From positions 1 to 64,000 of the forward strand of contig DAIDAO010000037.1 in the NCBI GenBank assembly GCA_027310575.1: DNA of 64,000 nucleotides, written 5' to 3'. The notes under the pieces are model-generated. The model worked only from the letters and a program-made list of their open reading frames with translations. It did not search any database and had not been told where the DNA came from. This stretch comes from a bacterium (lineage in GTDB: Archaea; Thermoproteota; Nitrososphaeria; Nitrososphaerales; Gagatemarchaeaceae). Positions within the stretch are counted from its first letter, which is position 1. Each line of letters starts with the position of its first letter. The translations under genes and the position numbers were made by a program. This document shows, one piece after another, positions 5,713-24,793 of this stretch.

Positions 5713-6288
5713 TCAACAGCCGGGAGTGAACATCCACCTCTCCTGAAACTCGGCTATCGTTACGGGGTCGATCGACGTCGGGAAGCGGATGCGGATGAGG
5801 TCAGGCTCCACTTTCTCAGACGTCGGGAAGCCCATGGTCCTCACCATCTTGATCATCCGCGTGTTGTTCCATCCAATCACTGCTTCGAACATGGTGACCC
5901 CGTCGGCATTGGCCGCCCGCGCGATGCTCTCGATCAGCCTCGTCCCCAGCCCCTTCCCCTGGTAGCCATCGAGTATCAGGACGCCCACCTCCGCAGCCTC
6001 CCCTTCCGACTTGTAGTACGCCGCGTGCCCCACGATGACGTTGCCCTTAACGGCCACGAGGCTCAGCCCTCCTGGCCTGGGCAGGAGCTGACTGACGATC
6101 ACCTGCCTGTCCATCCCTGTGGCGAGGAAGCGGAAATAGACCGTGTCTTCAGAGAGGCCCTCGACGAACCGCTCGAGCTCTTCCCTGTCTCCGTCCCTGA
6201 GCTCCCGGATCGTGACCCCGGTCCCGTCTCTCAGCGTGAACTCGGATCCCCTCCTCGCCAGCGGGACCTGCAGGTCTGATGCCGTCAA
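5713..6288 (-). CDS. GNAT protein lysine acetyltransferase, Pat/AcuA-like
   Basis: About 191 residues with one GNAT domain. LRDGTGVTIRELRDGD near the N-terminus and the acetyl-CoA loop GYQGKGLGTRL match the GNAT domain of Pat-type protein acetyltransferases, which modify acetyl-CoA synthetase in several organisms. There is no attached acyl-CoA synthetase-like or cNMP-binding domain. The frame opens at GTG 6324, but a TATA-like CTTTAAGG element at 6314-6321 sits about 27 nt before TTG 6288, so I chose 6288. It lies between acs and the AcuC-like deacetylase. Regulation of Acs by acetylation is inferred from sequence type and context. Confidence 0.82.
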   Translation of the reverse strand: MTASDLQVPLARRGSEFTLRDGTGVTIRELRDGDREELERFVEGLSEDTVYFRFLATGMDRQVIVSQLLPRPGGLSLVAVKGNVIVGHAAYYKSEGEAAEVGVLILDGYQGKGLGTRLIESIARAANADGVTMFEAVIGWNNTRMIKMVRTMGFPTSEKVEPDLIRIRFPTSIDPVTIAEFQERWMFTPGC

Positions 6289-6313
6289 GCCAGGCCGCGT
6301 GGACGCGGACCGG

Positions 6314-6321
6314 CCTTTAAG
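6314..6321 (-). promoter_or_regulatory. TATA-like box of the acetyltransferase-deacetylase pair
   Basis: CTTAAAGG on the minus strand, centred about 29 nt before TTG 6288. It implies a promoter separate from that of acs, and it decides the start choice for the GNAT gene. Confidence 0.4.
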
Positions 6322-6361
6322 CACCGGATACGATTCTCAGGCCTTGTAACGGCCGGAGCCT

Positions 6362-8395
6362 CTAGGCTGTCTGGACCTGTTTCCGAATCGTCTCGACGAT
6401 GTCGGGGTTTGCCAGCGTTGTGATGTCCCCGTAGTCCTTCCTGTCAGAGATGGAGACGAGGACACGCCGCATGATCTTCCCAGACCTCGTCTTTGGAAGG
6501 TCTGGCACTATGTACACCGTCCTCGGCTTCGCGATCGGCCCTAGCCCCTTGACGACGTTCTCCCTGATCTTGTCTTCAAGCTCCTTGGACGCGCTGTTCC
6601 CAGGCTTCAGCGAGACGTACACCACCGGGATGTGGCCGCGCAGCTCGTCGGCGACCGCCACAGCCGCAGCCTCCGCGACTTCAGGGGTGGTCAGGACCGC
6701 GTTCTCCAGCTCCTTCGTCCCGAGCCTGTGACCCGCCACCTTGATGACGTCGTCGACCCTCCCCAGGATGCGGAAGTACCCGTCGGCGGCCAGGACAGCC
6801 CCATCGCCGGAGAAGTAAGGCCAGTCATGCCAGTCCTTGCTGTCCGGGTTCCTGTTGTACTTCGAGTAGTACACCTTCACGAACCTCTCCGGGTCCCCCC
6901 AGATGGTCTGCATGATCCCCGGCCAAGGATTGCGGATGCACATGTTTCCAGCCTTGTTCTGTCCAGCCGGGACCTCGTCGCCGTTCTCGTCAAGGATGAT
7001 TGGGAATATCCCGGGCATCCCTGGCCCTGCGCTGCCAGGCTTCATCGGCGAAATCGCCGGCAAGGTCGAGCAGAGGAACCCGCCGTTCTCTGTCTGCCAC
7101 CACGTGTCCGTGATCGCCGCCTGCTTCCTCCCGACGACGTCGTAGTACCACATCCATGCTTCCGGCTCGATCGGCTCTCCGACCGTGGTCATCGTCTTGA
7201 AGTGCAGGTCGTACTTCGACGGCTCGTCCGGACCTGCCTTCCGCAGCATCCTGATGGTGGTGGGAGCGGTGTGGAAGATGTTCACTCCGAGCCGTTCCGC
7301 TATCCTCCACGGCCTTCCCGGGTCCGGGTACAGCGGGACCCCTTCGTACATCACGGACGTCGCAGCGACTGCGAGCGGGCCGTACACGATGTACGAGTGG
7401 CCGGTGATCCAGCCGATGTCTGCGAAGCACCAGTAGACGTCCTCAGGATGGATGTCCTGCACGTACTTCGACGTCCCGGCTACATATGCCAGGTATCCTC
7501 CGGTCCTGTGCTGGGCTCCCTTGGGTCTCCCCGTCGACCCGCTGGTGTACATGAGGAATAGAGGGGCCTCGGCGTCCATCGAGACGGGAGCTATCGTCTT
7601 GCCGCGGAAGGGCTTGATCAGGTCGTCAACGAAGTAGTCGCGCCCTTCGACCATCGGGGACTGGGAGACGTATCTTCCCGGGTGGCGCCTCCAGACGAGC
7701 ACCTTCCTGACCTCGACTCCGAGCTTCTTCGCCTCCTCCACAGTCGTGTCGGCTTCCTTCTTCTTGTCGATCAGCCCCCCGTTCCTGTAGTATCCGTCAA
7801 CCGTGACCAGCACGTCGCTCTTGGAGTCCTCCATCCTTTCGGCGCACGCCCTGGCGCTGAACCCGCCGAAGACCTGGTTGTGGATGATGCCCAAGCGCGC
7901 GGCTGCGAGCATCGAGATCGGGAGCTCAGGGACCATCGGCAGATGGAAGGTCACTCTGTCCCCCGCCTTCAGCCCGGCGGACTCCAGGACGAGCGCGAAC
8001 TCGTTCACCCTCCTGTACAGCTCTTGGTATGTGATGGCCTGGGTCGCTTCGCTCTCCGGCTCAGGCACCCAGATCAGTGCCGCCTTGTTCCTGTACTTCG
8101 GGAGGTGCCTGTCCACGCAGTTGTAGCTGGCGTTGAGCTTCCCGCCCACGAACCACTTCCAGAACGGCGGCTTGCTCGTGTCAAGGACCGTGTGCCACCT
8201 CTGGTCCCACGTCAGCATGTCCGCGTATTCTTCGAAGCACTCGGGGAAGTTCTTCTCAGAGAACCTCTCGTAAATCGACCTTTCCTTGACGTTTGCGTGC
8301 TGAGCCATGGTCACCGGCGGGTTGATGAGCGGCTCCTCCTTCCAGTGTACTGCTATCTGCGCCTCGGAAATCTCGGCCTCGCTTGTGGCCGTCAT
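6362..8395 (-). CDS. acs: Acetyl-CoA synthetase (AMP-forming)
   Basis: A full-length, 677-residue member of the acyl-adenylate superfamily. It makes acetyl-CoA from acetate, ATP and CoA through acetyl-AMP. Motif A3 reads MYTSGSTGRPKG, the hinge region reads GRVDDVIKVAGHR, and the C-terminal A10 motif PKTRSGKIMRR holds the catalytic Lys (about Lys640) that is the known target of regulatory acetylation in bacterial Acs. The tryptophan that keeps the acyl pocket small is present in TDTWWQTE. The gene is followed on the same strand by an acetyltransferase and a deacetylase. A TATA-like element at 8426-8433 lies about 35 nt before the ATG. Confidence 0.97.
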   Translation of the reverse strand: MTATSEAEISEAQIAVHWKEEPLINPPVTMAQHANVKERSIYERFSEKNFPECFEEYADMLTWDQRWHTVLDTSKPPFWKWFVGGKLNASYNCVDRHLPKYRNKAALIWVPEPESEATQAITYQELYRRVNEFALVLESAGLKAGDRVTFHLPMVPELPISMLAAARLGIIHNQVFGGFSARACAERMEDSKSDVLVTVDGYYRNGGLIDKKKEADTTVEEAKKLGVEVRKVLVWRRHPGRYVSQSPMVEGRDYFVDDLIKPFRGKTIAPVSMDAEAPLFLMYTSGSTGRPKGAQHRTGGYLAYVAGTSKYVQDIHPEDVYWCFADIGWITGHSYIVYGPLAVAATSVMYEGVPLYPDPGRPWRIAERLGVNIFHTAPTTIRMLRKAGPDEPSKYDLHFKTMTTVGEPIEPEAWMWYYDVVGRKQAAITDTWWQTENGGFLCSTLPAISPMKPGSAGPGMPGIFPIILDENGDEVPAGQNKAGNMCIRNPWPGIMQTIWGDPERFVKVYYSKYNRNPDSKDWHDWPYFSGDGAVLAADGYFRILGRVDDVIKVAGHRLGTKELENAVLTTPEVAEAAAVAVADELRGHIPVVYVSLKPGNSASKELEDKIRENVVKGLGPIAKPRTVYIVPDLPKTRSGKIMRRVLVSISDRKDYGDITTLANPDIVETIRKQVQTA

Positions 8396-10725: not shown

Positions 10726-11826
10726 CTACTTCCACCAGCCGTATTCTTTGGGAGTGTCGGTTATCGCCACGCCCTTCTTCCCCTCCACCAGGACGTCGTC
10801 CTCGATCCTCACGCCGAGCTTCCCCCTGATATAGACGCCCGGCTCCACTGTGAAGCACATGTTGGAACCGAGCCTCTCCTTGCCACCCTCCACGATGTAG
10901 GGGGCCTCGTGGACCTCGAGCCCGAGGCCGTGGCCCGTCCTGTGTATGAAGAACTTCCCCATCTCGGCCCTCTCCAGCACCCCCCTGGCGGCGCCGTCGA
11001 CGTCCCCGACCCGGGCCCCCAGGGCAGCCCTGTCGATCCCCGAAACCTCCGCCTCGAGGACCTTCCCGTAGACCTTCTCCACGTCCCGGGACGCGCCGAT
11101 GCAGAACGTGCGGGTGATGTCAGCGTAGTATCCCTGGTAGACTGAGCCGACGTCGATGATTATGCTCTCCCCCCTGCCTATCTTCCTCTCCGACGGGAGC
11201 CCGTGGGGGTCTGCGGCCCTGGGCCCCGACTGGACCAGCATGTCGTCCACCTTCGTCGCGCCTTTGGCGTAGATCACGTCCGTCGCAGCCTTCGCCAGTT
11301 CGAGCTCGCTCATCCCTTCCTTCAGCAGGCCGGGGAACTCCTCGAACGACCTGCTCAGGATTTCCGACGACTTCTTCAGGAGCCTGACTTCGGCCTCGTC
11401 CTTGACCTCGCGGAGGCCCTGGAGTATGGGCTCCGCGTCCGAGAGCCTGGGCGAGGCCCTCTTCGTCACCCTGTCCAGGAAGAGGAAAGGGACCTTGCCT
11501 TCGACCCCCCACTTCCCCTTCATCGCCACGCCCTCGATAGCCTCGGCCACAGCGCCTCCGGAGCCCTCGGAGTCGGTCCAGGGGTGGATCCTCATCCTGA
11601 GAGGGCAGTCCCCGTACGGCCCTGCCTCCAGCGCGGGCGCCACCAAGTGCGGCTCCCCGCGGGCCGGGACGAAGAGCATGAAGGGGCGCTCGAGCAGCAG
11701 GGAGTTGACCCCGGTGAAGTACCGCATGTTCGGGCCAGGCACTATTATCGCCCCCCGGAGCCCCTTGACCTCGAGCTCGTCCTTCAGCCTCTCGACCCTC
11801 TGAGCGTGCACGCCTTCCTTCGTCAT
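10726..11826 (-). CDS. Xaa-Pro peptidase (M24 family, prolidase-like)
   Basis: A 366-residue M24 'pita-bread' metallopeptidase with an N-terminal creatinase-type domain (about residues 1-135). All five metal ligands are visible: the two Asp of DVGSVYQGYYADITRT, the His of HRTGHGLGLEVHE, the Glu of TVEPGVYI and the Glu of RIEDDVLV. It should cleave X-Pro dipeptides or N-terminal X-Pro bonds in the cytoplasm. It diverges from proline dehydrogenase, 59 nt apart, around one shared TATA-like element, so release and oxidation of proline may be controlled together. Confidence 0.9.
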   Translation of the reverse strand: MTKEGVHAQRVERLKDELEVKGLRGAIIVPGPNMRYFTGVNSLLLERPFMLFVPARGEPHLVAPALEAGPYGDCPLRMRIHPWTDSEGSGGAVAEAIEGVAMKGKWGVEGKVPFLFLDRVTKRASPRLSDAEPILQGLREVKDEAEVRLLKKSSEILSRSFEEFPGLLKEGMSELELAKAATDVIYAKGATKVDDMLVQSGPRAADPHGLPSERKIGRGESIIIDVGSVYQGYYADITRTFCIGASRDVEKVYGKVLEAEVSGIDRAALGARVGDVDGAARGVLERAEMGKFFIHRTGHGLGLEVHEAPYIVEGGKERLGSNMCFTVEPGVYIRGKLGVRIEDDVLVEGKKGVAITDTPKEYGWWK

Positions 11827-11851
11827 GCTCGCGATGTGCGTTAGGAGCCAT

Positions 11852-11860
11852 CGTTAAATG
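11852..11860. promoter_or_regulatory. Shared TATA-like element between prolidase and proline dehydrogenase
   Basis: CGTTAAATG lies 26-30 nt before the prolidase ATG on the minus strand and about 31 nt before the proline dehydrogenase TTG on the plus strand. It is the only AT-rich element in the 59-nt gap. Confidence 0.45.
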
Positions 11861-11885
11861 TAGTCCTCTCGGCGGGCCGTTCGTC

Positions 11886-12731
11886 TTGGGCCTGAAGGAA
11901 AGGGTCGTCCTCCCGCTCGCCAAGCGCTGGATCGCGGGGGTCACCATGGACTCCGCCATCGAAGACGCGAAGAGGGCCAACACCAGGGGCATCGGCGCGA
12001 TCGTCAACTTCCTCGGCGAAGAGATCAAGGACCCGGCCACGGCCGACGCTCACACCGAGGAGTACCTGCGGCTCCAGCAGTCGCTCTTCGACGCTGGCGT
12101 CAACGGGTTCGCATCGGTTAAGCTCACCCAGCTCGGGCTCGGCGCCGACGACGAGGGGATGAAGGTCCGGCTTGAGAAGATCGCCTCGAACGCCGAGCGC
12201 CTCAGACAGCAGCTCTGGATAGACATGGAGGGGTCTGCGTTCACCGACGTCACCATCAGGACATACCTGGCAGCCCACGAGAAGCACCCTGACATGGGGG
12301 TCGCGCTCCAGGCGTACACTCGCAGGAGCGAGGGAGACCTGAAGACAATCCTGGACGCGGGAGGGAAGGTGCGCCTTGTCAAGGGCGCCTACAGGGAGAG
12401 CAGGGACTTCGTCTTCGCGACCAGGGCCGAGGTCAGCGAGAACTTCGCAAGGCTGATGGGGATGCTCTTCGAGAGAGGGAGCGGCTTCGCGATAGGCACG
12501 CACGACTCTTCCCTCGTAGACAGGGCCAGGTCGCTCGCCGAGTCCAAGCACGCAGAGTTCCGCTTCGAGCTGCTCAAGGGGATCAGGGACGACCTGAAGG
12601 ACGACCTCGTGAAGTCCGGGTACAGGGTGTCGGAGTACCTCCCCTACGGCGACAGATGGTACGCCTATTCCAGAAGGCGCATCTCGGAGCACCCGAGCAA
12701 CATCTGGCTCCTCCTCAGGTCCCTCGTCTAG
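11886..12731 (+). CDS. Proline dehydrogenase
   Basis: A 281-residue FAD-binding TIM-barrel enzyme that oxidises proline to pyrroline-5-carboxylate and feeds electrons to the quinone pool or another acceptor. The family blocks are in order: WIDMEGSAF, VALQAYTRRSEGDL, RLVKGAYRE, GTHDSSLV, FELLKGIRD and LPYGDRWYAYSRRRISE, the last of which binds substrate. It is a mono-functional PRODH of the short bacterial/archaeal type, not a PutA fusion. The start is TTG. No P5C dehydrogenase is in the window. The divergent neighbour is an X-Pro peptidase. Confidence 0.92.
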   Translation: MGLKERVVLPLAKRWIAGVTMDSAIEDAKRANTRGIGAIVNFLGEEIKDPATADAHTEEYLRLQQSLFDAGVNGFASVKLTQLGLGADDEGMKVRLEKIASNAERLRQQLWIDMEGSAFTDVTIRTYLAAHEKHPDMGVALQAYTRRSEGDLKTILDAGGKVRLVKGAYRESRDFVFATRAEVSENFARLMGMLFERGSGFAIGTHDSSLVDRARSLAESKHAEFRFELLKGIRDDLKDDLVKSGYRVSEYLPYGDRWYAYSRRRISEHPSNIWLLLRSLV

Positions 12732-12832
12732 GGACTCGTCTGCGGGTAGCCGGCGTTGATGCCAAGCTCAACAACAATAGACTCCGCCCGCAAAATACCC
12801 GACGGGCAATGAAAGGACACAGGTCAAGACAA

Positions 12833-13009
12833 ATGACAGAATATCAAAAGGGACAAGTCTGGGGCGCCCTCCGCAAGGCATGGAAGGGGTACCGGATCGC
12901 GAAGGTCCAGGGCGACAACGCCCGCATGAGGGAATACGCGACCCGCATCAGGACCCTCCAGGGCCAGCTTGGCGTTCCACAGGCTTCCTTCCCGAATCTG
13001 GGCATGTAG
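12833..13009 (+). CDS. Small conserved-type basic protein, function unknown
   Basis: 58 residues starting MTEYQKGQVWGALRKAWKG, rich in Lys, Arg and Gln, predicted mostly helical, with no membrane segment. I chose ATG 12833 over an in-frame ATG at 12809 because an AT-rich element (AAAATACC, about 12791-12798) places transcription start after 12809. The reading frame extends upstream into proline dehydrogenase but that part has no coding character. A good hairpin terminator follows the stop codon, which supports a real transcription unit. The basic composition could fit an RNA- or DNA-binding role; that is a guess. Confidence 0.6.
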   Translation: MTEYQKGQVWGALRKAWKGYRIAKVQGDNARMREYATRIRTLQGQLGVPQASFPNLGM

Positions 13010-13036
13010 AGGAGCTCCGCTCCTCTCTCCCTTTTT
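13008..13036 (+). terminator. Hairpin plus T-run terminator
   Basis: AGAGGAG (13008-13014) and CTCCTCT (13020-13026) form a 7-bp stem with a 5-nt loop, followed by TTTTT at 13032-13036. It overlaps the stop codons of the two convergent genes here. Confidence 0.55.
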
Positions 13037-13703
13037 AGTCAGAGTGGCCTAGTTCCTTCTCTATCTCGTCGAGGATGTCTTCGACTACCTGCTTCTGAAG
13101 TCCGAGAGACGAACAGATGGCGCCCATGCCGTCGCCGTCTTCTCTTACAAGGTAGTGCAGGACCTTCCTCCTGTCCGCGCCCGGCATCGACGTGGTGATC
13201 CTAGCAGCCTCCCGGAGTGCAAGGCTCCTGAGGTAGAGCAGCACCGCCCTCTCCTCCTCCATCTCCTTGAGCTTCCTGTCGACCTCGGCGACCACGCGGG
13301 TCAGGGGCCTTATCCTGGTGGCTGCGTCCGGATACCTGAGCACCTCGCTAATCTGCGTCATCATCTGCGCGTGCTCGTCTGTCTCCTGGACCCCCGGGAG
13401 CGCCCCGAACGAAAAGATCCTGGCCCTGAACCTATTCGGGGCGAGATCGAGCGTGACCGAGAAGCTCTTCTTCAAGAGGTACTCCTTCCTCTGCGGACCC
13501 CGCGGGCTGTCCTGAGAGACCGTGCTGACCAGGCCCGCGTCTTCCATCGTGAGCAGGTGCTTCGCCACCAGCTGCTGGCTGATGTCGAGCTCCTTCGAGA
13601 GCTGTAACTGGTAGTTGGGCTCCTCGCTGATCTTCGCGATTATCCTCCGTCTTATGGGGTTCTCTACTGTCCCCAGCACGGCGTCGAGCTCAGACTGGCC
13701 CAA
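13035..13703 (-). CDS. Winged-helix transcriptional regulator (ArsR-like)
   Basis: About 222 residues. An N-terminal winged helix (TVENPIRRRIIAKISEEPNY, then LSKELDISQQLVAKHLLTME as recognition helix, then the wing SQDSPRGPQRKEYLL) is followed by a helical region with a likely coiled coil (VVAEVDRKLKEMEEERAVL) and a second HTH-like C-terminal segment. The frame is open to 13811, but that would overlap the divergent GNAT gene. TTG 13703 lies about 35-40 nt from the shared TATA-like box at 13738-13747 and begins the conserved part. The regulator probably controls itself and the divergent GNAT/gamma-glutamyltransferase pair. Confidence 0.82.
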   Translation of the reverse strand: MGQSELDAVLGTVENPIRRRIIAKISEEPNYQLQLSKELDISQQLVAKHLLTMEDAGLVSTVSQDSPRGPQRKEYLLKKSFSVTLDLAPNRFRARIFSFGALPGVQETDEHAQMMTQISEVLRYPDAATRIRPLTRVVAEVDRKLKEMEEERAVLLYLRSLALREAARITTSMPGADRRKVLHYLVREDGDGMGAICSSLGLQKQVVEDILDEIEKELGHSD

Positions 13704-19051: not shown

Positions 19052-20194
19052 TTGCGACCGCCGTGGACCATCAGGACAGATACGTCGGGGACCCCGCTGT
19101 TCGTCTGTTGGGAGACCACGAAGGCCTGCCTCCTCGCCTGCCGTCACTGCAGGGCTAGGGCGATCCGGAGGCCACTCGAGGGCGAGCTTGACCGGCGTCA
19201 GGGAATTGCGCTCATCGACCAACTCTTGGAGTTCGACGAGCCTTACCCGGCTCTCCTCATGACTGGAGGCGACCCGCTCATGCGGCCAGACTTCTTCGAG
19301 CTCGTCGAACATGCGAAGAGCAGGGGCCTCTACGTCGCGGTCGCCGCGAGCGTGACGCCGCGGCTGAACGAGGAGTCGATCCTGCGCATGAAGGACCTCG
19401 GCGTCGACATAATGTCGGTCAGCCTCGACGGGGCGTCCCCGCTCACCCACGACAGGCTCCGGGGCGTCCCAGGCACCTGGGAGGCTACCGTGCGGGCGCT
19501 CAAGCTCGCGAGGGACGCGGGGCTGAGGGCGCAGGTCAACACCACGGTCATGAGGAGCAACGTCGGCGAGCTGGCCGACATCTTCCACATAGCCAGAGAA
19601 GCAGGCTCGGTCGCATGGGAGGTCTTCTTCCTCATCCGGACGGGCCGGGGCGCTTCGCTGGAGAGCCTTCAGGCGGCCGAGTGCGAGGAGGTCATGCACT
19701 TCCTCTATGACGCCTCGCAGTACGGGCTCCCAGTCAGGACTTCCGAGGGTCCGAGCTTCAGGAGGGTCCGAGTCGAGCGACAGAAGGCTGCAGGCTCGCC
19801 AGCCGGAGGAACATACCAGGGGCTTTCACGGCGGCTGCGGGCGCTCGAGGGCGCTCCCACGCCGCAGCCTTCGGTCAGACCGACGCAGACGAGGGACGGG
19901 AAGGGCCTCATGTTCGTCGGGTACAACGGCGAGGTCTTCCCGAGCGGGTTCCTGCCGCTGAGCGCCGGCCGCGTCCCGGATGAGAGGCTCGTCTCAATCT
20001 ATAGGTCGAACCAGCTCTTCGCGAGCCTGAAAGACGCGTCGATGCTGAAGGGGAGATGCGGAAGGTGCGAATACCGGGAGATCTGCGGGGGTTCGAGGTC
20101 CAGGGCCTTCGCCGAGCTGGGGGACCCGCTGGGGGAGGACCCCGCCTGCCCGTATGTACCGAGGTCCAACACCGCAGTGCCGACCATGACGTGA
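19052..20194 (+). CDS. Radical SAM/SPASM domain protein
   Basis: A 380-residue protein with the radical SAM cluster motif C-x3-C-x2-C (Cys26, Cys30, Cys33, in CLLACRHC), the glycine-rich LLMTGGDPLMRP strand and VSLDGASP. A C-terminal SPASM-type cluster region (CGRCEYREICGG and later DPACPY) should hold extra Fe-S clusters. Relatives include AhbC/AhbD-type heme enzymes and peptide-modifying enzymes, and the sequence resembles the family annotated as TIGR04053. The heme operon starts 600 nt downstream, so a tetrapyrrole role is possible but not shown. The start is TTG, with an AT-rich element (TTAGTTATAC) 10-20 nt before it. Confidence 0.85.
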   Translation: MRPPWTIRTDTSGTPLFVCWETTKACLLACRHCRARAIRRPLEGELDRRQGIALIDQLLEFDEPYPALLMTGGDPLMRPDFFELVEHAKSRGLYVAVAASVTPRLNEESILRMKDLGVDIMSVSLDGASPLTHDRLRGVPGTWEATVRALKLARDAGLRAQVNTTVMRSNVGELADIFHIAREAGSVAWEVFFLIRTGRGASLESLQAAECEEVMHFLYDASQYGLPVRTSEGPSFRRVRVERQKAAGSPAGGTYQGLSRRLRALEGAPTPQPSVRPTQTRDGKGLMFVGYNGEVFPSGFLPLSAGRVPDERLVSIYRSNQLFASLKDASMLKGRCGRCEYREICGGSRSRAFAELGDPLGEDPACPYVPRSNTAVPTMT

Positions 20195-20197
20195 GGT

Positions 20198-20554
20198 CTA
20201 GTCCCACGTCAACATCATTGATGGGCTACGATTCAGATCATCGAGGAAGATATCTTTGCGTCTGCCTCCCATGTCTGGTTGCAGTTTCCTGACGACGGCC
20301 AATATTGAATCAGCCTTCTCCTCGGGAAACGACAACTCAATGGTGTCGGTGTATGGGCCACCCTCTCTTTGAATCCTCTCAGGTTCATCTAATACATCGC
20401 CAACCTTCACAATGGTCGCCCCTGCAGCATAGAGTTCCTTCACAGCCTCGACTGCCTCGGCGGTCGTCGCGAAGCGGTTTGTCGCAAGGGCAGACTTGTT
20501 ACCGTTACGCTGCAGCCACGACAAGGCTTCGAATTCAGTCGGTCCCAACTTCAT
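20198..20554 (-). CDS. Hypothetical protein, 118 residues, in a lower-GC stretch
   Basis: I do not recognise this protein. It starts MKLGPTEFEALSWLQRNG, has FATTAEAVEAVKELYAAGA in the middle and ends in a charged, Asp-rich tail; no membrane segment or signal peptide is seen. It is predicted as mixed alpha/beta. Codon use is visibly less GC-rich than in both neighbours, which suggests transfer. An upstream 40-residue ORF in another frame overlaps its start by 20 nt, so either the two are coupled or a frameshift splits one longer gene. It is tail to tail with the radical SAM gene. Confidence 0.55.
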   Translation of the reverse strand: MKLGPTEFEALSWLQRNGNKSALATNRFATTAEAVEAVKELYAAGATIVKVGDVLDEPERIQREGGPYTDTIELSFPEEKADSILAVVRKLQPDMGGRRKDIFLDDLNRSPSMMLTWD

Positions 20555-20657
20555 TGGAGTGCGTCCCACCAACCCTGGGATAAGCCTTGAAGCCAAGGTT
20601 GACTCTCATGGAAGCTTCGGCGAGGTATTTCATCGCCACCACTCCGCCAGTGTCCAT
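20535..20657 (-). CDS. Possible 40-residue leaderless protein upstream of the 118-residue gene
   Basis: An ORF beginning MDTGGVVAMKYLAEASMRVN and ending in TGA 20 nt inside the next gene. A TATA-like TATTATAG (20681-20688, minus strand) lies 28 nt before its ATG, the normal spacing for a leaderless transcript here. It could be a real small protein coupled to the next gene, or the N-terminal part of one gene broken by a frameshift near 20555-20580. Confidence 0.35.
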   Translation of the reverse strand: MDTGGVVAMKYLAEASMRVNLGFKAYPRVGGTHSNEVGTD

Positions 20658-20757
20658 GCTGTCTAGGAGGCGGAATCTCGCTATAATACAAAGGCCTTCG
20701 CACGCGCCCTCGCAGGTGGGGTCTGGCGAAAGTGGGACAGCACCGGCTTAACAAACG

Positions 20758-20769
20758 CTAAATATAATG
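20758..20769 (+). promoter_or_regulatory. TATA box of the heme operon
   Basis: CTAAATATAATG, a strong TATA-like sequence centred about 31 nt before the hemA ATG at 20795, predicting a leader of about five nt. Confidence 0.55.
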
Positions 20770-20794
20770 AGCTCTGGCCGCCGGCGAATCGTCA

Positions 20795-22084
20795 ATGGGT
20801 GCGCCCAAGGGGGGAGCTGGACACGCCATGCATGATTGGGGCGAAGAACCACCAGCGCCTTCCCTCGTCTTAGTCGGTACGTCCTTCCGGACCGCAGGGA
20901 TAGCCACGAGGGAGCGCGTAGCAAGGCGCCTCGCGAGGCCCGGGCAGCCCGATATCCTCTCCGGTGGAGGCAGGATAATGGAGAGCGCTATCATCGAGAC
21001 CTGCAACAGGCTCGAGCTCTATCTTGTGTGCAGCAGCGCGGAAGAGGCGGCGAGGTCGGCGATGGAGCAGCTCGGCAGGGGCACTCCTTCTGGAAGCTTC
21101 TACGTAAAGAGCGGCGCGGACGCGGTCAGGCACCTCTTCAGGGTGGCTTCGGGCCTCGATTCCCCTGTCCTGGGCGAGGAGCAGATACTCGAGCAGGTCA
21201 GGGAGGCAGGGAGAACGGCAAGGACCGCGGGGAGCGCGAAGTCGGTCCTCTCCTCGCTCTTCGACGCAGCGTACAGCTCAGGCAGGCGCATACGCGCGTC
21301 GTACGAGGTCTCTCCTGAGAACAGGTCGGTCAGCTCGTTCGCTCTGAAGCACGCGCTGGAGGAGGTCGGGGGTCGGCCGGCAAGCGCGCTGCTGATAGGA
21401 TCAGGCGAGACGGCCAAGCTCGCCGCGCTCAAGCTGAAGGGGTCCACGGTCTACCTCCTCTCGGCCAGGAGGGGGGTCGAGTCCAGGTTCCCGAAAGCGG
21501 TGAGGATTCCGAGACGCAGGCTGCGCGAGGCTGCCGAGAAGTGTGACCTGATAATATCGGCCACGAGGCGCCGTCGCTACGTCCTGACCGCAAGAGACCT
21601 CCCGAGGGCCAAGAAGGTGGTGGTTCTCGACCTCGGCTTCCCGAGGAACGTCGACCCGTCCGTGGGCGACTTGAAGCTCGTGAGGCTGTACGACCTGGAC
21701 GCCGTGGCGGAATGGGCCCTTTCCAGGACGCCCATCAGGAACGCTGCCGCAGAGGCATCGGTCGAAGAGGAGACGAAGCGGTTCGCCGCATGGCTCACCG
21801 CCAGCAGGCTCACCCCGACCCTCGCCAGCATCTACAGGTGGGCCGAGAGCATAAGGGAGGAGGAAGCCGTCGCAGCTCTCAGGAAGCTCCCGAACCTCTC
21901 GGCGCACGACAGGGGCGTCGTCGAGGCCCTCAGCAGGCGGCTCACGGGGAAGCTGATCTCGCCGCACGCCGCGTTCGTGAAGCAGCTCGGCAGCGGAGAG
22001 GGGCAGCAGGAGAGGCTTCTCTTGCTCGAGTCGATCTTCAGAGACGGAGGGAAGGCTGCGCAGAAGCCGAAGGTGGGCGCCTGA
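20795..22084 (+). CDS. hemA: Glutamyl-tRNA reductase
   Basis: A 429-residue enzyme that reduces Glu-tRNA to glutamate-1-semialdehyde, the first step of C5-type tetrapyrrole synthesis. Visible motifs are the N-terminal SFRTAGIATRER, IETCNRLELYLV with the catalytic Cys, and SPVLGEEQILEQV. The NADPH Rossmann site is LLIGSGETAKLAALKLKG, and a C-terminal helical dimerisation region starts near residue 310. It is the first gene of hemA-hemQ-hemE-hemH; its TGA overlaps the hemQ ATG by one nt. An in-frame ATG at 20828 is an alternative start. Confidence 0.95.
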   Translation: MGAPKGGAGHAMHDWGEEPPAPSLVLVGTSFRTAGIATRERVARRLARPGQPDILSGGGRIMESAIIETCNRLELYLVCSSAEEAARSAMEQLGRGTPSGSFYVKSGADAVRHLFRVASGLDSPVLGEEQILEQVREAGRTARTAGSAKSVLSSLFDAAYSSGRRIRASYEVSPENRSVSSFALKHALEEVGGRPASALLIGSGETAKLAALKLKGSTVYLLSARRGVESRFPKAVRIPRRRLREAAEKCDLIISATRRRRYVLTARDLPRAKKVVVLDLGFPRNVDPSVGDLKLVRLYDLDAVAEWALSRTPIRNAAAEASVEEETKRFAAWLTASRLTPTLASIYRWAESIREEEAVAALRKLPNLSAHDRGVVEALSRRLTGKLISPHAAFVKQLGSGEGQQERLLLLESIFRDGGKAAQKPKVGA

Positions 22085-22794
22085 TGGAGGAAAGGCGCGA
22101 GGAAGCGCCGGCGGCTGCCCAGCTCGAGAAGAGCTACCTGAAGTACACTTTCTTCAAGGTGTCCCGCGAGTGGAGGTCCCTCGGCGCCGAGGCGAGGGAG
22201 GAATCGAAGAGGGAGTTCCTCCAGGTCCTGGAATCTTCCGCGACGGCCCTCTCCTTCTTCTCGCTCGTCGGGCTGAGGGGGGACACAGACTTCATGATCC
22301 TGGCGGAATCCCCTAGCCTCGACTCCTTCCAGACGCTCGTCTCAGACGTCCTTTCGACCAAGCTCGGCAGGTACCTCGAGATGCCGTACTCCTACCTGGC
22401 GATGACCAGGAGCTCGAAGTACCTCGGCTCTCACAGGCACGCAGGCCAGGAAGGGTCGATGCGCCAGCCCTCCTCCAGCAGGTTCATCTTCGTCTATCCG
22501 TTCGTGAAGAAGCGGGAGTGGTACAGGCTGCCGTTCACCGAGAGGCAGAGGATCATGGCTGAGCACTTCAAGATCGGACACAAGTATCCCTCGATAAAGA
22601 TCAACACGGGCTATTCGTTCGGCCTCGACGATCAGGAGTTCGTGCTCGCCTTCGAAGGGGACGACCCCTCCGAATTCCTCGAGCTGGTCGAGGAACTGAG
22701 GAGCTCAGAAGCGAGCATGTACACGGAGCTGGAGACCCCCATCTTCACCTGTCGCCGCGTAGATCCGGCGACCATGCTCTCCCTCCTGGGATAA
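22084..22794 (+). CDS. hemQ: Coproheme decarboxylase, HemQ/chlorite dismutase-like
   Basis: A 236-residue protein of the chlorite dismutase/HemQ superfamily with two ferredoxin-like halves. The second half holds REWYRLPFTERQRIMAEH and GHKYPSIKINTGYSFGLDD, where the His of GHKYP is the expected proximal heme ligand, and ends in YTELETPIFT. HemQ (ChdC) decarboxylates coproheme to heme b with peroxide. Placement between hemA and hemE, with a one-nt overlap, supports heme synthesis rather than chlorite removal. A loop rich in Gln and Ser (about residues 117-137) replaces part of the Firmicute sequence. Confidence 0.9.
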   Translation: MEERREEAPAAAQLEKSYLKYTFFKVSREWRSLGAEAREESKREFLQVLESSATALSFFSLVGLRGDTDFMILAESPSLDSFQTLVSDVLSTKLGRYLEMPYSYLAMTRSSKYLGSHRHAGQEGSMRQPSSSRFIFVYPFVKKREWYRLPFTERQRIMAEHFKIGHKYPSIKINTGYSFGLDDQEFVLAFEGDDPSEFLELVEELRSSEASMYTELETPIFTCRRVDPATMLSLLG

Positions 22795-22853
22795 GGGTCT
22801 GCGATGGATGTGCGAGATTCGAGGGGGCGCCGCTCCGAGGCGGAGGCTGCGCT

Positions 22854-23891
22854 GTGACGCGCGAGGGTTCGCAGTTCGTCCGAGCGTGCCTCCGGGAGGA
22901 GACGGAATACACCCCCGTCTGGTTCATGAGGCAGGCGGGAAGGTTCCTGCCTAGCTACAGGCGGATAAAGGGGGCCCGGAACGTGCTGGAGGTCGCCAAG
23001 GACCCCGTGCTTGCTTCGGAGGCGGCAGCAGACGCTGTGCGCGCCCTCGGCGTCGACGCAGGGATCATCTTCGCGGACATCATGCTGCCTCTCGAGGCGA
23101 TGGGGGTCAAGCTCAGGATCGAAGAGGACGTCGGGCCCCTCATCTCGAACCCGATACGCACGTCCGAGGACGTCACCGCGCTCCGCAGGGTGGACCCGGG
23201 GGCCGACCTCCCCTTCGTCTACGAGGGCATAGACAGGACCATCCAGAAGCTCGACGGACGGACCCCTCTGATCGGGTTCTCCGGTGCTCCGTTCACCCTC
23301 GCGGCCTACATGATCGAAGGTGCGCCGAGCAGGGAGCTCGCGAAGACCAGGTCTCTCATGTACTCCGACCCGGAGACGTGGCGCCTCCTGATGAGAAGCC
23401 TGACCGACATGACCAAGGCGTATCTCTCGGAGCAGGTCAAGCACGGCGTGTCCGCTGTCCAGCTGTTCGACAGCTGGGTGGGGTGCCTCTCCCCCCACGA
23501 CTACCAGCGGTTCGTCTCTCCCTACACCCGCGAGATATTCGCTTCGACTGACACGGTGCCAAGGATCCACTTCTGCGCCGACTCATCCGCGCTACTAGAG
23601 GAGTTCCATCGCACCGGGCCTGACGTCCTCAGCGTCGACTGGAGGATACCCATCGACGAGGTCTGGCGTAGGTGCGGTGACGACACCGCAGTCCAGGGGA
23701 ACCTCGACCCCGCGGCAGCGCTCGCCGGGGGCGCGGAGATGAGGAACCAGGTCGCAGGGATACTGGACAGGGCCAAAGGCCGGAGCGGCCACATATTCAG
23801 CCTGGGTCACGGCGTCCTCCGCGGCACAGACCCGGACACTCTCCGCGAGGTAGTGAGCTACGTGCACGAAAGCACCAGGAGGGGAGCCTGA
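22854..23891 (+). CDS. hemE: Uroporphyrinogen decarboxylase
   Basis: A 345-residue UroD, converting uroporphyrinogen III to coproporphyrinogen III. The signature PVWFMRQAGRFLPSYR, with its substrate-binding Arg, is complete, as are the catalytic Asp in FADIMLPLEAMG and the conserved GFSGAPFTLAAYMIEG. HGVSAVQLFDSWVG and SLGHGVLRGTDP near the end are also typical. It starts with GTG 59 nt after hemQ. Its TGA is overlapped by a likely CTG start of hemH. Full decarboxylation suits the coproporphyrin-dependent heme route, not the siroheme route. Confidence 0.95.
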   Translation: MTREGSQFVRACLREETEYTPVWFMRQAGRFLPSYRRIKGARNVLEVAKDPVLASEAAADAVRALGVDAGIIFADIMLPLEAMGVKLRIEEDVGPLISNPIRTSEDVTALRRVDPGADLPFVYEGIDRTIQKLDGRTPLIGFSGAPFTLAAYMIEGAPSRELAKTRSLMYSDPETWRLLMRSLTDMTKAYLSEQVKHGVSAVQLFDSWVGCLSPHDYQRFVSPYTREIFASTDTVPRIHFCADSSALLEEFHRTGPDVLSVDWRIPIDEVWRRCGDDTAVQGNLDPAAALAGGAEMRNQVAGILDRAKGRSGHIFSLGHGVLRGTDPDTLREVVSYVHESTRRGA

Positions 23892-24793
23892 CGAAGGGGG
23901 TCCTGCTCATGACGTACGGCACACCCAGCTCCATGGAGGGGGTGGCCGAGTACTACACCAACATCCGCGGGGGGCAGAGGCCGTCCCAGGCCGAGATCGA
24001 CAACCTTCGCAGGCGGTACGAGACGATAGGGGGGACGTCCCCGCTCATCCGGATCACGGAGAGCCTGCGAGGCAAGCTCCAACGCCGCCTCGCGGCCGAA
24101 GGCTCGGAGACCCTCGTCTACTCCGCCATGAAGCACTCGGAGCCGTTCATCGCAGACGTGGTGAGGAGGGCCGCAGACGAAGGGGTCGACGAGCTTCTTT
24201 CGATCGCGCTCGCACCCCACTTCTCCAAGATGAGCGTCGGGACTTACATGCTTGCAGTCGAGATGGCGAACGCCGCGCTCCCGAGGAAGATGAAGCTCAC
24301 CTCGGTTGACTCATGGCACACGAACCCGAAGCTAATCCAGGCCTGGGCGTCGAGGATCAGAAGCGCCGAGCGGACTCTCCCGGGAACCTACTCCCTTGTC
24401 TTCTCCGCCCACAGCCTCCCGGAGAAGATACTGGCGAGCGGGGATCCCTACAGGTATCAGCTGGTCGAGTCGTGCGAATCGGTGTCCGCGGCCCTCCGAA
24501 GAGAAGAGTGGAGCTTCTCGTTCCAGAGCGCGGGCCACACGAGGGACCCCTGGCTGGGGCCGGACATACTCGAGCACCTCCAGGACAGGCTTGACTACGG
24601 CTCCAGGAGCTTCCTGATCGCGCCGATAGGGTTCGTCGCAGACCATCTGGAGATCCTATACGACATCGACGTCGAGTGCAGGCATTGGGCAGAGACAGCT
24701 GGCGCCCGACTGGAGAGATGCCGCATGCTCAACGACGACGACGACTTCGTAGAGTGCCTCCGTTCCGTGGTCGACGAGCGGCGCTTCCTATGA
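23888..24793 (+). CDS. hemH: Ferrochelatase (coproporphyrin ferrochelatase type)
   Basis: A chelatase of about 301 residues that inserts Fe2+ into a porphyrin. TKGVLLMTYGTPSSMEGVAEYY is the standard first strand and loop, and SAHSLPEKI carries the metal-binding His. GPDILEHL and PIGFVADHLEILYDIDVE, with the catalytic Glu, complete the site. The first ATG is 23909, but that start would cut the first beta strand KGVLLMTYG. No ATG, GTG or TTG lies between the hemE stop and it. CTG 23888 overlaps the hemE TGA as CTGA, so I extend to it. With HemQ and HemE in the operon, the likely substrate is coproporphyrin III. Confidence 0.9.
   Translation: MTKGVLLMTYGTPSSMEGVAEYYTNIRGGQRPSQAEIDNLRRRYETIGGTSPLIRITESLRGKLQRRLAAEGSETLVYSAMKHSEPFIADVVRRAADEGVDELLSIALAPHFSKMSVGTYMLAVEMANAALPRKMKLTSVDSWHTNPKLIQAWASRIRSAERTLPGTYSLVFSAHSLPEKILASGDPYRYQLVESCESVSAALRREEWSFSFQSAGHTRDPWLGPDILEHLQDRLDYGSRSFLIAPIGFVADHLEILYDIDVECRHWAETAGARLERCRMLNDDDDFVECLRSVVDERRFL

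Follow-up and report, generated by a model that had tools for sequence, protein, structure and literature searches.

The metagenome-assembled genome (MAG) analyzed here, from a soil archaeon of the Nitrososphaeria (G000; 1.58 Mb, 61 contigs, 97% complete, 4.35% contamination) carries heme biosynthesis genes in two places. Four of them, hemA, hemQ, hemE, and hemH, lie in the window (i.e., the whole 64,000-nucleotide stretch of contig C52 that was analyzed), and hemC, hemD, hemB, and hemL lie on contig C20. On the basis of gene content, homology, key residues, and tree conflict, we consider it likely (probability, about 0.8) that the window holds part of a split coproporphyrin-dependent (CPD) heme pathway, the two halves of which come from two operon lineages.

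Gene content of the predicted pathway

A first-pass annotation of the window had proposed a hemA-hemQ-hemE-hemH operon, representing the CPD gene set in an archaeon. Both proposals were borne out: the four genes lie on the forward strand, their family matches are far above chance, and a search for ahb genes found no siroheme-route (Ahb) set. The features are as follows.

19052..20194, forward strand: radical S-adenosylmethionine (rSAM)/SPASM gene of family TIGR04053 (469 bits; 1e-140)
20759..20768, forward strand: probable TATA box, TAAATATAAT (position and composition only)
20795..22084, forward strand: hemA, glutamyl-tRNA reductase (GlutR_N, 5e-34)
22084..22794, forward strand: hemQ (chdC), coproheme decarboxylase (Chlor_dismutase, 8e-57; key residues kept)
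22854..23891, forward strand: hemE, uroporphyrinogen III decarboxylase (URO-D, 2e-114; TIGR01464, 385 bits; cut-off, 303)
23888..24793 (first ATG at 23909), forward strand: hemH, cpfC-type ferrochelatase (Ferrochelatase, 5e-75)

HemQ retains Tyr147 and the proximal His161, both invariant in 93 homologues, and has a distal histidine (His117), as in actinobacterial enzymes (for the roles of these residues, see PMC7611857). Tyr147 and His161 thus mark it at the residue level as a probable ChdC, and HemE clears the curated TIGR01464 cut-off (385 versus 303 bits), as expected of the CPD enzyme. HemH is nearest to the coproporphyrin ferrochelatases (CpfC) of Bacillus and Listeria (Firmicutes) and retains the His and Glu motifs of the active site, in keeping with a putative CpfC-type enzyme whose substrate would be coproporphyrin III. 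COX1 was found in the same genome; therefore, this organism needs heme.

The genes are tightly packed. The last nucleotide of hemA is also the first of hemQ, and a CTG at 23888 would give hemH a 4-nt overlap (CTGA) with the hemE stop. This CTG, rather than the ATG at 23909, is probably the hemH start because it restores the N-terminal strand of the relatives. Upstream of hemA, a 10-nt A/T run (TAAATATAAT) stops 26 nt short of the ATG, and we regard it as a plausible TATA box for a leaderless or nearly leaderless hem transcript. The neighboring rSAM/SPASM gene was likewise confirmed, but it lies outside the tight hem operon, given the 600-nt gap before hemA and a possible minus-strand open reading frame (ORF) between the two genes. 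This ORF (132 aa; 20198 to 20596) matched no family, nor did the loci compared contain a convincing relative.

With enzyme roles assigned by homology and gene neighborhood, the predicted route would begin with HemA and continue through HemL, HemB, HemC, and HemD (C20) to uroporphyrinogen III, from which HemE would yield coproporphyrinogen III. Neither known enzyme is at hand for the following oxidation, which would be performed by an unrecognized enzyme (candidate, a CopD-like protein encoded on contig C8) or proceed nonenzymatically in air. HemH would then insert iron into coproporphyrin III, and HemQ, with peroxide, would convert coproheme to heme b for the terminal oxidase. The coproporphyrin route fits because the CPD genes are present and AhbA/B were not found; with neither CgoX nor CgoN found, this one step is unassigned.

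Proposed split of an eight-gene operon

The first-pass annotation had also listed hemL, hemB, hemC, and hemD as missing, which holds for the window only: a genome search found all four together on C20 (locus L111, 7536 to 11514), intact and adjacent. An apparent stop in hemC proved to be an alignment overrun. Same-genus relatives and many Thermoplasmatota have a single eight-gene operon, hemA-C-D-B-Q-L-E-H, and this operon is divided without overlap in the window genome into A-Q-E-H (C52) and C-D-B-L (C20).

The two halves have different affinities. Gene by gene, the A-Q-E-H set is nearest to loci L002, L004, and L122, and the C-D-B-L set is nearest to L008 to L011 and L117. In concatenated trees, A-Q-E-H groups with L002, L004, and L122 (support, 100/98), with placement in operon clade I rejected (approximately unbiased [AU] test, P = 5.7e-5), and C-D-B-L branches as the sister group of clade I (100/99), with clade II rejected (AU P = 2.7e-4); these P values are somewhat optimistic, as the clades were named after the HemQ tree had been seen. 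The rSAM protein nearest to the window one is encoded in L011 (clade I), its gene directly preceding hemA there.

The first-pass annotation had envisaged formation of a new operon. Given that the single operon of the relatives divides exactly into two halves, each allied with a different lineage, we consider a split and chimeric pathway the likelier explanation. An ancestral hemA-C-D-B-Q-L-E-H operon would have contributed A-Q-E-H from one lineage and C-D-B-L from another. The simplest reading is that a second operon was acquired from a relative and that complementary gene loss followed, an order of events that we infer. Members of the genus may plausibly have exchanged operons, because the tree of elongation factor 2 (EF-2) does not match clades I and II; G008 (clade I) and G009 (clade II) even have identical EF-2 rows. 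As a species tree for choosing the native half, EF-2 was too conserved to decide.

Several points weigh against a split CPD pathway. There is no physical link between C52 and C20, and both belong to a MAG of 61 contigs for which contamination is put at 4.35%. The CgoX step has no assigned enzyme, which leaves the route incomplete on paper. Regarding other oxidases, no HemY-type enzyme exceeded the TIGR00562 cut-off; HemF, HemN, HemG, and HemJ were not searched for.

The first two points raise the possibility that A-Q-E-H and C-D-B-L come from two archaea binned together, so that no single cell has a chimeric pathway. The differing nearest relatives of the two gene sets would agree with such an artefact, and composition is no help in separating close relatives within the bin. 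However, the halves are exactly complementary, whereas every relative has a whole operon; two contaminant halves would imply two source genomes that had each been split, and in ways that complement each other. Plain contamination is disfavored because two whole operons would then be expected, yet hemQ and hemB each occur once in the bin. Moreover, C20 joins C56, which carries the single EF-2 gene of the bin, through an exact 141-bp overlap. We therefore regard a binning artefact as unlikely.

On C20 (L111, 5005 to 15315), hemC-D-B-L is flanked by two pairs of related genes (5996 to 7508 and 11556 to 13159) and lies near genes for cytochrome b561 and a multicopper oxidase with a cupredoxin domain. 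Partial rearrangements were seen in L012 (hemA divergent from hemQ-E-H, with no hemL there) and L024 (hemB-Q-E-H, with no hemL between Q and E). Genes for the ATPase and permease of an ABC-2 type transporter lie downstream of hemH in L008 to L011 and L117 and upstream of hemA in L026, L031, L033, and L038; this transporter might export heme or a porphyrin.

The oxidation step and the radical SAM neighbor

The reported lack of CgoX was upheld: no match exceeded the TIGR00562 cut-off in the window genome or 30 relatives, and CgoN (PF07285) was detected in none of 31 genomes. Among 30 archaeal genomes that carry the operon and were reached through loci, six had CgoX over the cut-off, one of them read through in-frame stops. 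In “Candidatus Gagatemarchaeum stordalenia” (L002), cgoX adjoins the operon, divergent from hemA. No conserved gene flanks all operons as a possible replacement; only the ABC-2 transporter recurs, in some. In L180 (G319:C105:5274-6683), a CgoX match beside a TIGR04053 gene spans two TAG codons and one TAA codon (i.e., a decayed cgoX); the same genome also has an rSAM-CopD-like pair (L210).

The window rSAM protein has a CxxxCxxC motif at residues 26 to 33 and C-terminal SPASM cysteines. It exceeds the TIGR04053 cut-off (469 versus 395 bits), and AhbD (heme b synthase; TIGR04545), also a radical SAM/SPASM family, is second best at 269 bits, far under its cut-off of 500. By score, TIGR04053 is thus a sister family of AhbD rather than a member, and it occurs without AhbA/B/C.

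TIGR04053 and a CopD-like gene were both sought in 14 same-genus genomes: 8 had TIGR04053 over the cut-off, the same 8 had the CopD-like gene (in one case a fragment at the edge of a contig; paralogues below 35 bits, which are distant, were left out), and 6 had neither (Fisher P = 3e-4, relatedness ignored). The two genes are adjacent in most of these eight genomes and also in other lineages. hemH follows the pair in three Thermoplasmata and faces it in two Nitrososphaeria. In other archaea, cgoX rather than a CopD-like gene adjoins TIGR04053, accompanied by hemH in two Thermoplasmata, and family f21 has the order hemB-hemL-hemE-hemH-rSAM-cgoX in a cluster without hemQ (L188). Relative to the rSAM gene, cgoX and the CopD-like gene are thus placed alike, which suggests that the two may do the same job and that TIGR04053 may act at the HemQ step.

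Kinship to AhbD likewise points to the HemQ/AhbD step, and AhbD has been described as the last enzyme of the coproporphyrin route in some organisms (PMC7242693). A role for TIGR04053 as an oxygen-independent coproheme decarboxylase, alternative to HemQ, fits better than replacement of CgoX. We tentatively suggest, as a minority possibility, that TIGR04053 (decarboxylase) and the CopD-like four-helix membrane protein (oxidase), both oxygen independent, form an archaeal three-gene cassette with HemH. If so, the cassette would need neither oxygen nor peroxide to carry the coproporphyrin route through all of its last steps, working alongside CgoX and HemQ or instead of them. The recurring TIGR04053/CopD-like/hemH neighborhood thus provides two named, testable candidates for oxygen-independent enzymes.

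For the window genome, the CopD-like protein is a weaker candidate for the missing coproporphyrinogen oxidase because its gene lies on C8, away from heme genes. It had no HemJ match; the eight relatives scanned gave CopD, DUF2269, DUF4149, and DUF2214. As a general CgoX replacement it was rejected, given that most Thermoplasmatota operon genomes lack it and that the complete genome G005 has the operon and none of known CgoX, TIGR04053, and the CopD-like gene. In genomes such as G005, coproporphyrinogen may be oxidized spontaneously in air.

The first-pass annotation had raised the idea that the rSAM protein substitutes for CgoX. HemN is an rSAM enzyme that acts on porphyrinogens, TIGR04053 is found repeatedly beside heme genes, and CgoX was not found in the window genome. 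Nevertheless, TIGR04053 adjoins cgoX itself in several lineages, it is missing from four genomes with the operon and no CgoX (G005, G008, G010, and G012), and its sister family AhbD acts on coproheme (PMC7242693). Substitution for CgoX is therefore quite improbable.

Other heme routes and known systems

A classical protoporphyrin route with unrecognized oxidases, with HemQ in some other role, would share HemA to HemE and HemH with the CPD route, and the oxidase search did not extend to HemF, HemN, HemG, or HemJ. No HemY-type oxidase was found, however, a HemQ with intact catalytic residues sits in the operon, and HemH is nearest to coproporphyrin ferrochelatases, which together make this route very improbable.

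The complete Ahb set to which the first-pass annotation had looked as counterevidence was not found. AhbA/AhbB (PF17805) were absent from G000 and its genus, and apart from TIGR04053 the best rSAM protein of the window genome reached 46 bits in a screen in which an AhbC scores 214 bits and an AhbD-like protein scores 399 bits (the AhbC and AhbD models themselves were not run over the genome). Heme formation through siroheme, with HemQ only replacing AhbD as in Haloferax and with HemE and HemH otherwise employed, has a parallel in order relatives that pair AhbA/B with HemQ (G019, G020, G025, and G027), but it is the least credible alternative, with no AhbA/B or AhbC-grade rSAM in the window genome or genus, hemE and a CpfC-like hemH in the same operon, and the HemQ of those relatives elsewhere in the tree. 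In these four genomes, genes for AhbA/B, SUMT-like, SirC-like, and HemQ proteins lie near hemA-B-L-C-D (L123, 8253 to 18995); they have no rSAM of AhbC or AhbD grade (best, 33 to 61 bits; TIGR04053 model) and no obvious enzyme for the conversion of didecarboxysiroheme to coproheme.

The proposed split CPD pathway of the window genome shares HemA/L/B/C/D, HemE, a putative CpfC-type HemH, and HemQ with the pathway of Firmicutes and Actinobacteria (UroD-CgoX-CpfC-ChdC), and its HemQ is nearest to the actinobacterial type of ChdC with a distal histidine. It differs in the archaeal host, in that CgoX and CgoN were not found, and in the division of the operon into halves of two lineages. Haloferax volcanii is also an archaeon with a ChdC-family enzyme (PitA) (PMC5746218), ChdC being used in air and AhbD in anoxic growth (PMC5746218, PMC8305020). 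In contrast to the window genome, which has hemE and hemH and no AhbA/B, Haloferax is without uroD, cgoX, and cpfC and obtains coproheme via Ahb; moreover, PitA is fused to an ABM-like domain, whereas the window HemQ is unfused. Like the window genome, Thermoplasma and Picrophilus have hemE and hemH but neither ahb genes nor recognized late oxidases, and the heme route in such archaea was termed unclear in 2010 (PMC3004389). The ChdC structure 3DTZ from T. acidophilum (TA0507) is of a homologue of the window HemQ. The window genes differ in that they share an operon with hemQ, an arrangement that spells out the route, and related operons occur in many Thermoplasmatota MAGs.

The window HemQ has its nearest counterpart in “Ca. 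Gagatemarchaeum.” Among the homologues sampled (for bacteria, close matches of the query only), archaeal HemQ proteins of this kind group in turn nearest to Thermomicrobiota and HR33, and Thermomicrobiota share the gene order hemCD-B-Q-E. The transfer from bacteria proposed earlier would be consistent with this pattern, as would exchange between the domains in either direction.

According to a 2024 survey covering 2,978 archaeal genomes, a complete CPD route is confined to some Halobacteria and a single Hydrothermarchaeota genome (PMC11459464). In open-licence full-text literature, we found no account of this operon in Nitrososphaeria or Thermoplasmatota, which leaves an earlier description possible. 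The eight-gene CPD operon is common in soil Nitrososphaeria and Thermoplasmatota and may have been overlooked since the oxidase is usually missing; the window genome would add a case of one pathway drawn from two operon lineages with complementary loss. Two same-genus genomes, G002 and G003 (90 and 96% complete), encode a COX1-type oxidase but have no hemB and no hemQ and are possible heme auxotrophs.

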